Assembly (NCBI GenBank): GCA_027487515.1
Contig: JAIYDL010000015.1
Location: 62,001-126,000 of the forward strand
Direction of reading: 5' to 3'
DNA: 64,000 nt
Origin: Pseudomonadota bacterium
GTDB lineage: Bacteria > Bdellovibrionota > Bacteriovoracia > Bacteriovoracales > Bacteriovoracaceae
The translations under genes and the position numbers were made by a program. Every line of letters starts with the position of its first letter. Position 1 is the stretch's first letter. The notes below the pieces were generated by a model. It had not been told where the DNA came from. It did not search any database and saw only the letters and a program-made list of their open reading frames with translations. Positions 52,335-55,392 of the stretch are shown piece after piece.

Positions 52335-52647
52335 CCGAGATCAGGGGACTATCGCCGCCGGCAACGGGGGAGGAAAGTCCGGACACCATAGAGCATCGTA
52401 GCGGGTAACGCCCGTCCGCCGTGAGGCGAGGACAAGTGCAACAGAAAGGATGTATGGCCCGTTGAACCACTCCGGTGATGAGACGGGTGCGTAGTGAAAT
52501 CAGGTAAACTCTACGAGGTGCAAGCCCATGTAGGTGAGCGGTGAGTCTGCTCGAGGAGCTCACGGGTAGGGTGCTGGAGCCCCCAGGTAACTCGGGGCCT
52601 AGAGGAATGATAGTTTAATACAGAATCCGGCTTATTCCTGATCTCGG
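52335..52647 (+). ncRNA. rnpB: RNase P RNA, bacterial type
   Basis: The catalytic RNA that matures tRNA 5' ends. The conserved CR-I segment GAGGAAAGTCCGGAC is at about 52369-52383, an ACAGAAA core element follows near 52441, and the 3' CR-V element ACAGAATCCGGCTTA ends near 52634. The P1 helix is perfect: CCGAGATCAGG (52335-52345) pairs with CCTGATCTCGG (52637-52647). P1 is followed at once by TTTTTTC, so it can serve as the terminator stem. Length about 313 nt, a compact type-A RNA. Confidence 0.96.
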
Positions 52648-52688
52648 TTTTTTCATAAGCTCCTGGAATTTCGTTTTCATTTTTCCAT

Positions 52689-52715
52689 TTAAGAAATCCA
52701 GTGATTCGCCGATAA
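52689..52715 (+). promoter_or_regulatory. Sigma-28 (FliA)-like promoter of the first zincin paralogue
   Basis: TTAA (52689-52692), 15-bp spacer, then GCCGATAA (52708-52715), an exact FliA -10 octamer. The -35 fits TAAA only partly. The start codon is 12 nt past the -10, so the leader would be only about 5 nt, and no Shine-Dalgarno is present. The downstream paralogue has the same arrangement. Confidence 0.6.
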
Positions 52716-52727
52716 GTCCGTTCAAGT

Positions 52728-54017
52728 ATGAAAAACACCACCATCAACACTCTAGTCTTAACTATTACTCTAACCACCGCGGCCCAGGCCCTTCCTCCCC
52801 AAGACGGAGAACAGGCATTCCCGGTTCCCCCGTCATCGAGTTCCGTGATAACGCGTGAACCACTCCCCCCCGCTCTGCCCTATCAAGAACCGCGACAACC
52901 AGAGGCCCCGCGACGTGGACTCTTAGAGATGCTTTCCTCTTTCTTCGGGTCAGGGAGCTCGTCTAGTCCGGCGCCCATAGCGACTCCGGCCGTCGATGAA
53001 GAGTGCGCCCCGGATGCTCCGCTGCAATGTCGGGAGCCGGTGACGGCGGTTTGCAACATTCGAAAACCTGAAGATCGAATTCCGCGAATGGAGACCGCCA
53101 TCAACCGGAGATTCTTTCCTCGCCAGCACCGCAACCAACGAGATCGCTTGAACGCCTTCATCGGCGCCTCTCGAGAAGCCGAAAGACAAGTGTTCGCACA
53201 GAGTCCCGTGACGACTTCAGACATCGAAGGTCTCTTCAATAACGTCAGAGATAGCCTCCGCGGTCTCATCGCGGAGAATCCAAACATTCCTGCGAACCAA
53301 AGACAGGCCATGTACCAGCACCTCGGCGCCGTCCGGTTCTACACCTCGGGCTCCGAATACCTTGCTGCCGAGATCGCTGAGCGAAGGAACACCAACGCCA
53401 GTGCCACTGAGGAGCAGCACCTTCAGACTACGGTGAACGGCTACGAAGCTGCGTGCGGCAAAGGCCTCGGCACGCAGGCACTGAACCGCGGTAACAAAAT
53501 CCACCTCTGTCCTGGAATGATTCAGTCTCTCCTGGATCGGCGGGCGTCTCGCGAAGAGGTCATGAACGCGTTAGCGTTCACCCTCGGTAACGAGCTCTCC
53601 CAGAGCATCGGACCTGGAACCTTCCCGCAGCTCTACCAGCAGATGGGTGAGTGTTACAACCAACTCAATAATGACCCGAGGTACTGGGCCGGAACTCCGC
53701 AAGTCCAAACTGAGGACGCCCAAGGTGGCCATCGCTACATCGACTCGGGTCGCGGGGCAGAGACTGCTGCTGATTACTGGGGTACGCAGATCCTTGCCAA
53801 GCGCATCGCTGACCAAGGGGTCACTGGAGAGATGGCCGTCCGAGCGATTGCTCATGCGACGGACGGGTTCTGTAACAATTCCCAAAACCCGCAGAACGCA
53901 CCAGGGAATGATCGGATCCGGTTGACTGTTGTGAGACACCCGACCATCCGTGAAGCGATTGGCTGTGGGAACCAGCCCGCGAGGACCTCGTGTTCTATGG
54001 CCGGAGCTCACCGCTAG
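52728..54017 (+). CDS. Secreted zincin-like protein with lost zinc-binding histidines (pseudoenzyme)
   Basis: A 429-residue exported protein (signal peptide about 1-20, ending AAQA) homologous over most of its length to the next gene. A Pro-rich linker precedes a Cys-containing domain (CAPDAPLQCREPVTAVC). Where the paralogue has HELSH, this protein has N288-E-L-S-Q292, so both zinc-binding His are lost. The downstream E345-x3-D349 (ETAAD), equivalent to a gluzincin third ligand, is kept, as are flanking residues and the C-terminal QPARTSCSMAGAHR. It is expected to be proteolytically inactive, perhaps a decoy, chaperone or inhibitor of its twin. Confidence 0.75.
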   Translation: MKNTTINTLVLTITLTTAAQALPPQDGEQAFPVPPSSSSVITREPLPPALPYQEPRQPEAPRRGLLEMLSSFFGSGSSSSPAPIATPAVDEECAPDAPLQCREPVTAVCNIRKPEDRIPRMETAINRRFFPRQHRNQRDRLNAFIGASREAERQVFAQSPVTTSDIEGLFNNVRDSLRGLIAENPNIPANQRQAMYQHLGAVRFYTSGSEYLAAEIAERRNTNASATEEQHLQTTVNGYEAACGKGLGTQALNRGNKIHLCPGMIQSLLDRRASREEVMNALAFTLGNELSQSIGPGTFPQLYQQMGECYNQLNNDPRYWAGTPQVQTEDAQGGHRYIDSGRGAETAADYWGTQILAKRIADQGVTGEMAVRAIAHATDGFCNNSQNPQNAPGNDRIRLTVVRHPTIREAIGCGNQPARTSCSMAGAHR

Positions 54018-54039
54018 AAATATTTACGATGTTCAATCT

Positions 54040-54076
54040 GCCGCTAGACCCTGGGTCAACCGGGACTAGCGGCTTT
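54040..54076 (+). terminator. Terminator-like hairpin between the zincin paralogues
   Basis: GCCGCTAG (54040-54047) pairs with CTAGCGGC (54066-54073), with an inner CCC/GGG extension, followed by TTT. It separates the two paralogous units, supporting independent transcription. Confidence 0.6.
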
Positions 54077-54129
54077 AGTCATTGAATCTAAAAATCATGG
54101 TTACTCTTGAAACCAATTCGTTCGTCCTC

Positions 54130-54156
54130 TCAAGAGAATCAGTGATCCGCCGATGA
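54130..54156 (+). promoter_or_regulatory. Sigma-28-like promoter of the second zincin paralogue
   Basis: TCAA (54130-54133), 15-bp spacer, GCCGATGA (54149-54156). The -10 has one mismatch to the FliA octamer, and the spacing and position (12 nt to ATG 54169) are identical to the upstream copy. The 38 bp before each start are clearly homologous. Confidence 0.5.
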
Positions 54157-54168
54157 GTCTGTTCAAGT

Positions 54169-55392
54169 ATGCATATCACGACAACTAGGGCCCTCATTCT
54201 AGCCACTGTACTAACCTCGGGTGCCCTCGCCATCCCGCCATCTGTAGAAGCCCAACCTACTGAACAGACACAGAGTCGGTCTCCATTTGCTTTCATAAGA
54301 GAAGGCTTATCTTCAATCTTCGGCTCAGGCAGCTCGGCGAGTCCGAGTCCGTTGACGACCCCGATCGTTGATGAGGAGTGCAGCGCGGACGCTCCTTTAC
54401 AATGCCGAGAGCCGGTGACAGCGGTTTGCAACATCCAAAAACCTGAGAACCGAATTCCTCAGATAGATGCAGCGATCAAGCGCAGATTTTTCCCCAGAGA
54501 ACATCGAACACCACAGGCCAGACTCAACGCTTACATTGGCGCCGCCAGAGAAGCCGAAAATCAGGTTTATTCCCAAAGTCCAGTGACTCGCGACGACGTG
54601 CAGGGCCTCTTCGATAATCTCAGAACGAACCTCCGGGGACTCATCGCACAAAACCCGAACATTCCGCAGAACCAGCGTCAGAGGATGTACGACCAGTTAG
54701 GAGCAGTCCAATTCTACGTTTCCGGCCCAGAATACATGGCCTCTGAGTTGGCCCGACGCAGGACCGAAAACCCAACAAGTCCGGACAACGAGCAAATTGA
54801 GAACACGACGAACGGTTACTCCGGATTCTGTGAGCAAGGCATGGGGATCAATGCACTCAATCGGGGGAATAAGATTCACCTCTGCCCAGGGATGATTCAG
54901 TCCCTCATTGACCGACGCTCCACCAGAGAAGAGATGATGAACGCTTTGGCGTTCACCATTGGTCATGAGCTGTCTCACAGCATTGGACCGAACAATTTTC
55001 CGGACCTCTATAAGACGATGGGTGAATGCTACGGCCGTCTTAACAATGACCCACACTACTGGAATGGACGGCCCCGCATTGATACGCCAGATGCCCAGAG
55101 CGGTCATAACCACAACCACCATAGTAGGGCCGAAGAAATTGTGGCCGATTACTGGGGGACTCAGTTACTGGCCCAGCGCATGGCCAGTCAAGGTGTCACT
55201 GGGGAAAGCGCCCTCCGAACGATCGCGCACGCGACAGATGACTTTTGCAACAACGATCATGGTCCCGGGTATGCCACTGGAAACGATCGGATCGGCCAGA
55301 CAGTGGTCCGGAACCCAACAATCCGTGAGGCCCTCGGGTGTGGTTCTCAACCGGCACGAACCTCGTGTTCCATGGCCGGTGCGCACAGGTAG
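54169..55392 (+). CDS. Secreted gluzincin-like metalloprotease
   Basis: A 407-residue exported protein (signal peptide about 1-20, ending GALA). The zinc site is H266-E-L-S-H270 in IGHELSHSIGP, with E323-x3-D327 (EIVAD) 53 residues later, the ExxxD layout of gluzincins such as M48. A Cys cluster (CSADAPLQCREPVTAVC) and further Cys toward the C-terminus (GFCEQG, DDFCNN, GCGSQPARTSCS) suggest disulfides. It is the active-site-intact twin of the upstream gene. Secretion plus a sigma-28-like promoter suggest use by motile cells. No named peptidase family could be assigned with certainty. Confidence 0.78.
   Translation: MHITTTRALILATVLTSGALAIPPSVEAQPTEQTQSRSPFAFIREGLSSIFGSGSSASPSPLTTPIVDEECSADAPLQCREPVTAVCNIQKPENRIPQIDAAIKRRFFPREHRTPQARLNAYIGAAREAENQVYSQSPVTRDDVQGLFDNLRTNLRGLIAQNPNIPQNQRQRMYDQLGAVQFYVSGPEYMASELARRRTENPTSPDNEQIENTTNGYSGFCEQGMGINALNRGNKIHLCPGMIQSLIDRRSTREEMMNALAFTIGHELSHSIGPNNFPDLYKTMGECYGRLNNDPHYWNGRPRIDTPDAQSGHNHNHHSRAEEIVADYWGTQLLAQRMASQGVTGESALRTIAHATDDFCNNDHGPGYATGNDRIGQTVVRNPTIREALGCGSQPARTSCSMAGAHR

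Follow-up and report, generated by a model that had tools for sequence, protein, structure and literature searches.

Two adjacent genes in a 64,000-nucleotide stretch of Bacteriovoracaceae DNA (assembly GCA_027487515.1, contig JAIYDL010000015.1, positions 62,001 to 126,000; hereafter the window) were analysed, the first encoding a predicted pseudopeptidase and the second its predicted active paralogue. In window coordinates, the genes are:

52728..54017, + strand: upstream copy (P0001), 429 amino acids (aa), a secreted-looking M13-like zincin homologue and predicted pseudopeptidase
54169..55392, + strand: downstream copy (P0002), a 407-aa paralogue and predicted active zinc peptidase

The two open reading frames (ORFs) coincide exactly with those marked at 52728-55392 by an initial annotation of this DNA, and the motifs that it had contrasted, HELSH with EIVAD against NELSQ with ETAAD, were verified in residues and in their equal spacing of 53 residues. 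The HExxH zinc motif of M13 peptidases is present in P0002 as HELSH (H266-H270), followed by the third-ligand glutamate E323 of EIVAD, and is absent from P0001, which reads NELSQ (N288-Q292) followed by E345 of ETAAD. Both proteins run from a short N-terminal hydrophobic stretch ending in A-x-A, assigned by eye as a signal peptide, through a Pro/Ser-rich linker into a 340-residue domain. The two domains are 67% identical and have nine cysteines in common, and the C-terminal 14 residues (QPARTSCSMAGAHR) are the same in both proteins, in agreement with the homology and identical C-terminal segment noticed at the outset. Since 8 of these 14 codons differ synonymously, the identical end is not a recent conversion tract; gene conversion is also contradicted by sliding windows, in which no tract with a low proportion of synonymous differences (pS) was found between the paralogues.

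Zinc ligands in the pair and across the family

The same tandem, in the same order, was found in a second species (genome G012, contig JAIYDC010000083.1), with NELSQ/ETAAD in the upstream copy and HELSH/EIAAD in the downstream copy. Among 26 genomes of the genus, the tandem was found in these two only, the window's own (G000) and G012, and in both the Asn/Gln copy adjoins the His/His copy, an arrangement that the initial annotation had singled out for checking. It was not found in the remaining 24, many of which are incomplete, leaving absence unproven for each; a third genus genome (G020) has one distant family member only, with HELTH. The catalytic glutamate E289 of P0001, together with E345 and D349, is retained in the upstream copies of both species.

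The wider family was surveyed using a profile built from 14 members, which was compared with a phylum sample of 368 genomes, at most five candidates being scored per genome. Matches at E 1e-4 or better were obtained in 133 of the 368, the weakest of which may be other zincins. A total of 120 regions were fetched in list order, omitting the G000 and G012 rows, second pieces of ORFs already covered and one fragment, and with the G012 region these made up 121 loci, the tail of the match list lying outside the survey. ORFs of at least 120 codons matching at E 1e-3 were taken as family ORFs. HExxH was present in 126 of the 127 family ORFs of these loci, the sole exception being the upstream copy of G012; the count is blind to degenerate members scoring below the threshold. 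In the alignment (P0002 numbering), His occupies both positions 266 and 270 in 81 of 81 relatives with E below 1e-20. Nine columns are 100% conserved among the relatives with a residue there (C79, C87, H266, E267, H270, E323, D327, C360 and R374; for E323 and D327, 80 of 80), and of these the upstream copies have changed the two histidines only. When the threshold is lowered to 80%, which gives 20 columns, three are changed in the upstream copies alone: the two histidines H266 and H270, and L389, which is Ile there. Both copy types depart from the relatives at K170, D273 and P369, and at H368 too save in the upstream copy of G012. Residue 368 is the His of an H-x5-R motif that we take to be equivalent to His711/Arg717 of neprilysin; it is His in 73 of 79 relatives and in the upstream copy of G012, Tyr in both downstream copies and Asn in the upstream copy of the window. 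Because the same pair with the same residues is found in a second species and all 81 closer relatives are His/His, the replacement is more than chance.

One alternative would keep the upstream copy an enzyme, either with an altered metal site formed by the Asn/Gln pair and E345 or through metal-free catalysis by the retained glutamate. The retention of E289, E345 and D349 in both species and the identity of the Asn and of the Gln in both would be expected of such an enzyme; however, no other surveyed member has a site of this kind, D349 and E289 may serve only to preserve core hydrogen bonds, and Asn and Gln are poor zinc ligands. We regard this alternative as improbable.

Two or three family ORFs each, all with HExxH, were found in loci L181, L193, L194 and L225, and tandem pairs of the wider family in other genera (L193, L194, L181) keep HExxH in both copies. 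The survey also delineated a phylum-wide family of compact, Cys-rich, secreted-looking M13-like gluzincins (e.g. L107-L226) with the motif series HExxH / ExxAD / HPxGxxR / CPG. No relative was encoded in 28 candidate viral stretches.

Selection on the two copies

Between the two species, the domains are 82% identical for the upstream copies and 90% for the downstream copies (63 and 33 residue differences in 340), with 65-69% identity across types. The upstream domains gave a pS of 0.83 and a proportion of nonsynonymous differences (pN) of 0.11, and the downstream domains a pS of 0.49 and a pN of 0.05. The maximum-likelihood ratio of nonsynonymous to synonymous rates (omega) was about 0.012 for the upstream pair, a value of which only 'far below 1' is safe, synonymous sites being saturated; omega = 1 was rejected with twice the log-likelihood difference (2dlnL) at 404 for the domain and 400 for the full length. 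For the downstream pair, omega was 0.08-0.12 and omega = 1 was rejected with a 2dlnL of about 183, and on the four-gene tree forcing omega = 1 on the upstream tips cost about 206 log units relative to a two-ratio model. At the zinc site itself, the codons differ between the species for Asn (AAC/AAT), for Gln (CAG/CAA) and for the intervening Glu (GAG/GAA). The silent changes of the Asn and Gln codons therefore indicate that both identities have been kept, even though a single base change would turn either codon into His.

Simple decay, in which the upstream duplicate would be turning into a pseudogene and the two His losses would be its first visible damage, draws on the fact that loss of catalytic ligands is the classic first sign and on the presence of the pair in only 2 of 26 genus genomes, which implies that it is not generally needed. 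However, the frame is open in both species, omega = 1 is rejected with a 2dlnL of about 400, the same Asn and Gln persist under synonymous codon changes, and all nine cysteines and a promoter-like site are kept. The pS/pN, omega and Asn/Gln codon data refute decay for practical purposes, and we consider it highly improbable. General degeneration of the upstream copy was likewise ruled out: at the 54 differences fixed between the types in the 340 domain columns, the relatives favour neither type clearly, agreeing with the downstream copy at 18 and with the upstream copy at 27, with ties at 9. Neither random substitutions at the two His sites nor frameshifts, either of which would have spoken against the initial annotation's reading of a gene kept rather than decaying, were seen in the homologues, and an intact Asn/Gln copy with the same residues occurs in G012; on two species, maintenance of the upstream copy is well supported.

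The upstream copy can accordingly be described by the two usual marks of a pseudoenzyme, being a homologue that has lost catalytic residues (the activity of the family is assumed from its motifs) and a gene maintained rather than left as a pseudogene, as suggested by an omega far below 1 and the silent Asn/Gln codon changes. We hold it moderately probable that it is a maintained pseudopeptidase which acts by binding, either as a partner or regulator of its active paralogue or by holding substrates uncut.

As a separate observation, the pS of the upstream copy (52728-54017 compared with L014:4314-5564) is 0.80 over the full length and 0.83 over the domain, far exceeding the 0.49 of the downstream copy, and three left-flank genes, at pS 0.54-0.68, also lie below it despite their adjacency.

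Promoter-like sites and flanking genes

Four further features of the window bear on the expression and setting of the pair:

52689..52715, + strand: promoter-like TTAAG-N15-CCGATAA, ending 12 nucleotides (nt) before the upstream start codon
54130..54156, + strand: promoter-like TCAAG-N15-CCGATGA (1 mismatch), ending 12 nt before the downstream start and paralogous to the first site
54040..54073, + strand: intergenic hairpin (GCCGCTAG...CTAGCGGC) with no strong T-run
52336..52650, + strand: rnpB (RNase P RNA, class A), the conserved left neighbour (Rfam RF00010, 217.5 bits)

The regions around the two starts of the window match at 80% over 51 bases, and in all four genes of the two species the start is preceded by 39 nt of similar sequence containing T(T/C)AA(G/T)-N15-CCGA(T/C)(A/G)A. 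Both window sites closely resemble the FliA consensus of the Bdellovibrio attack phase: in the excerpted text of PMC3627812, TTAAG-N16-CCGATA is common to 92 of 140 attack-phase promoters, and the genes that FliA appears to control include proteases; the spacer is N15 here and N16 there. The genome carries a FliA-type sigma factor scoring above the curated cut-off and six flagellin matches. The exact pattern TYAAG-N{15,16}-CCGATAA occurs six times in the 3.4-megabase genome, including the site in the window, and not once in the reversed control. All six sites lie 12-44 nt before a possible start, and under a stricter position test 5 of the 6 pass, compared with 5.1% of 2000 random window positions; the test required an ORF of 130 aa or more to start within 45 nt and to have an in-frame stop no more than 90 nt upstream. 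Since each gene has its own similar promoter-like element, joint switch-on is probable, and the two genes are probably co-expressed. The first 75 intergenic nt fold at -26.7 kcal/mol (a raw value, without shuffle control), and a different hairpin, also without a clear T-run, lies between the two genes in G012. The hairpin may separate two transcripts, and two transcripts from the two genes are likely.

The six exact sites (L243-L248, own genome) may mark a regulon of FliA type, whose other members would include secreted-looking proteins and, as judged by eye, one that resembles ClpP. Elsewhere in the same genome (L228; C9, about 100.2 kb), a TAA-N15-GCCGATAA site lies 7 nt before the start of a 497-aa HExxH protein, lipoprotein-like and secreted as judged by eye, which would be another secreted zincin with a similar site.

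In both genomes rnpB lies directly upstream of the pair (Rfam; blastn), and to the left are a 227-aa gene, encoding a C4 zinc-ribbon protein by eye and without a Pfam match, and aroB- and aroA-type genes (DHQ synthase and EPSP synthase by Pfam). The right neighbours are a calcineurin-like phosphoesterase, which we take to be pdeM, and an Lhr-type helicase in the window, and an HhH-GPD glycosylase, presumably mutY, in G012. In the 227-aa neighbour, G012 comes closest among the 23 other genus members carrying that gene (73% compared with at most 59%). For the 22 other genomes with the 227-aa gene, 17 loci were fetched (3 of them short), and no match to either copy was found beside rnpB in these; in G015, a single 206-aa unmatched ORF is all that lies between rnpB and the phosphoesterase. 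The slot just 3' of rnpB (about 52650 in the window; loci L087-L106) is a hot spot of gene content, its contents varying within the genus.

The upstream protein could also be a stand-alone binding protein, adhesin-like or binding prey or peptides, with its adjacency to the active paralogue a relic of duplication. The 54 fixed differences and the separate promoter-like sites are in keeping with such independence, as is the proposal, in excerpts of PMC8223033, that secreted Nepl proteins of Drosophila sequester peptides. However, both genomes that have the pair keep the two genes adjacent, in the same order and with similar promoter-like sites, though the right neighbour differs in G012, and we see this explanation as possible, if on the unlikely side.

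Family, proposed role and known systems

No M13 match was obtained for P0001 or P0002 at the gathering score of PF01431 and PF05649, and Pfam and NCBIfam scans and PDB sequence searches yielded no curated family membership for the pair. No strong Pfam peptidase match was found among the scanned members (14 of set A2 and 29 of set A4), nor an NCBIfam one among the 14 of A2; PF01431 was touched by 1 of the 14 (E 0.0011) and 1 of the 29 (E 0.0012). The second M13 motif with the third ligand, of ENIAD type as defined in the excerpted text of PMC8223033, is present as ExxAD in both copies. At the position of the NA[FY] substrate-binding motif of M13, three of the four copies have NAL and the upstream copy of the window has QAL, with NAF in 6 of the 10 other A2 members. 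In place of the C-terminal CxxW of M13, the proteins end in CSMAGAHR or similar, without Trp.

The fold search was carried out using a domain-only AlphaFold2 model of the downstream copy, the best of five (predicted local distance difference test, pLDDT, 64.9; the other four 39-48), built from four input sequences; a full-length model was set aside at pLDDT 49.6. With this mediocre model, ranks 1-12 in Foldseek were all M13 chains (neprilysin, ECE-1, mycobacterial Zmp1 and bacterial PepO), at E 5.2e-4 to 0.025 (three at E 0.001 or better), TM-scores of 0.42-0.49 and root-mean-square deviations of 7.7-10.3 A. An hhalign comparison with the genome's own M13 protein (Pfam 9e-47) gave a probability of 92, with HExxH, E...D, H-x5-R and the C-terminal Cys colinear. 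Because NA[FY], CxxW and the Pfam cut-off are lacking, the family looks M13-like rather than M13. M48 shares the gluzincin HExxH/ExxAD pattern, and weak M48 profile matches were obtained in 5 of the 14 A2 members (best E 3.4e-4), but P0002 scored 13.7 bits against a cut-off of 20.3 and over 15 residues only; membership of M48 was disfavoured, fold and profile comparison pointing to M13.

For the maintained pseudopeptidase favoured above, the following scheme is proposed. Both genes would stem from a single duplication that preceded the divergence of the two species. They would probably be turned on at the same time, each from its own promoter-like element of similar sequence, and perhaps in the motile phase. 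The downstream gene would encode an M13-like zinc peptidase, secreted and rich in cysteines. In the upstream product the cysteines are retained, as are the catalytic Glu, the Glu of the third ligand, the supporting Asp and, presumably, the fold; since its two zinc histidines are replaced by Asn and Gln, it is predicted neither to bind a catalytic zinc nor to cleave peptides. On structural grounds, the polar side chains of Asn and Gln could preserve hydrogen bonds of the core, including the one to the retained Asp327. Loss of the zinc site alongside retention of the cysteines and Arg374 points most naturally to binding. The upstream product would most likely act outside the cytoplasm, either on the active paralogue, as its non-catalytic partner or regulator, or by holding the same peptide substrates uncut. 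A narrower version, in which the zinc-less twin forms a complex with the active paralogue and controls or aims it in the motile, possibly predatory attack, phase, seems to us unlikely; it might, for example, keep the paralogue inactive until release or protect the producer's own envelope. If true, it would make the upstream protein a bacterial neprilysin-like pseudopeptidase with a partner role.

Several points weigh against the proposed scheme. Selection was read from one pairwise comparison per copy, in two species only, and synonymous saturation leaves the omega of the upstream copy poorly bounded. Beyond the two histidines, the 18/27/9 split of the relatives suggests nothing that marks the upstream copy as specialised. 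Full activity of the downstream copy is likely but not certain, since at 368 it has Tyr where the relatives have a conserved His. The promoter pattern was defined with the window site already known, and a looser form, TAA-N{14,16}-GCCGATAA, gave 6 matches compared with 3 in controls. Of the flagellin upstream regions, five of six were scored, giving three partial sites and two without any; for the partial sites, with N15 only, 3, 36 and 43 of 500 mononucleotide shuffles were equally good. The hairpin and the two promoter-like sites mean that a fixed stoichiometry is not implied.

Active/inactive metalloprotease pairs are already known in general, and it is in this respect that the initial annotation's remark that it recognised no described pair of this kind needs qualifying: the general kind has precedents in M16B, TldD/TldE and Nepl, and it stands for this family and arrangement, for which none was found among the literature matches listed. 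Within M13, Drosophila has mostly secreted, predicted-inactive paralogues (excerpts of PMC8223033 and PMC11266112), with 21 predicted-inactive Nepl genes compared with 7 active ones (PMC8223033), and further precedents of an inactive partner and of an inactive M13 protein are the mitochondrial processing peptidase and Gone early (PMC11266112, in excerpt). Unlike M13 proteins such as neprilysin, ECE-1 and PepO, which measure about 630-700 aa in their structures, the present pair has a 340-residue domain and consists of adjacent bacterial genes without a Pfam M13 match, CxxW or NA[FY].

The M16B pairs TTHA1264/TTHA1265, SPH2681/SPH2682 and AlbF/AlbE are heterodimers of related metallopeptidase subunits, the partner in TTHA1264/1265 being encoded by the neighbouring gene (PMC12731061, in excerpt). 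In M16B pairs, the active-site residues are described as typically present in one half only. M16B differs in fold and motif (HxxEH), and the two genes studied here seem to have separate promoters. SPH2681/SPH2682 and AlbF/AlbE are reportedly encoded by adjacent genes, and one half of each pair is said to be zinc-less. TldD/TldE is likewise a heterodimeric metalloprotease, with the metal site in TldD only and both proteins required (PMC5810440, in excerpt); it differs in fold and in its HExxxH motif with a Cys ligand, and it removes the microcin B17 leader and is not a secreted tandem. The folds and motifs of M16 and Tld (HxxEH, HExxxH) are not those found here, where HExxH occurs with ExxAD and the fold matches are to M13; the pair does share with active/inactive heterodimeric metalloproteases that its genes are adjacent and co-inherited, in both genomes that have it.

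Among the title and abstract matches listed, no bacterial M13-like active/inactive tandem was found in the literature, and what appears to be new is an M13-like tandem that is bacterial, compact and secreted and in which, among the invariant positions, the two zinc histidines alone have been exchanged. Substituted zincins are common in sequence surveys, and the roles of inactive zincins are described as unknown (PMC3650047, in excerpt). Against this background, the pair offers a clean natural case, with one duplication, two histidines changed, the other invariant positions kept, two species and strong selection; the His/His twin next door provides a built-in control, and the FliA-like sites link the pair to an expression programme that can be tested. 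Should the two proteins act as a complex, active/inactive metalloprotease pairing would extend to a secreted M13-like family.

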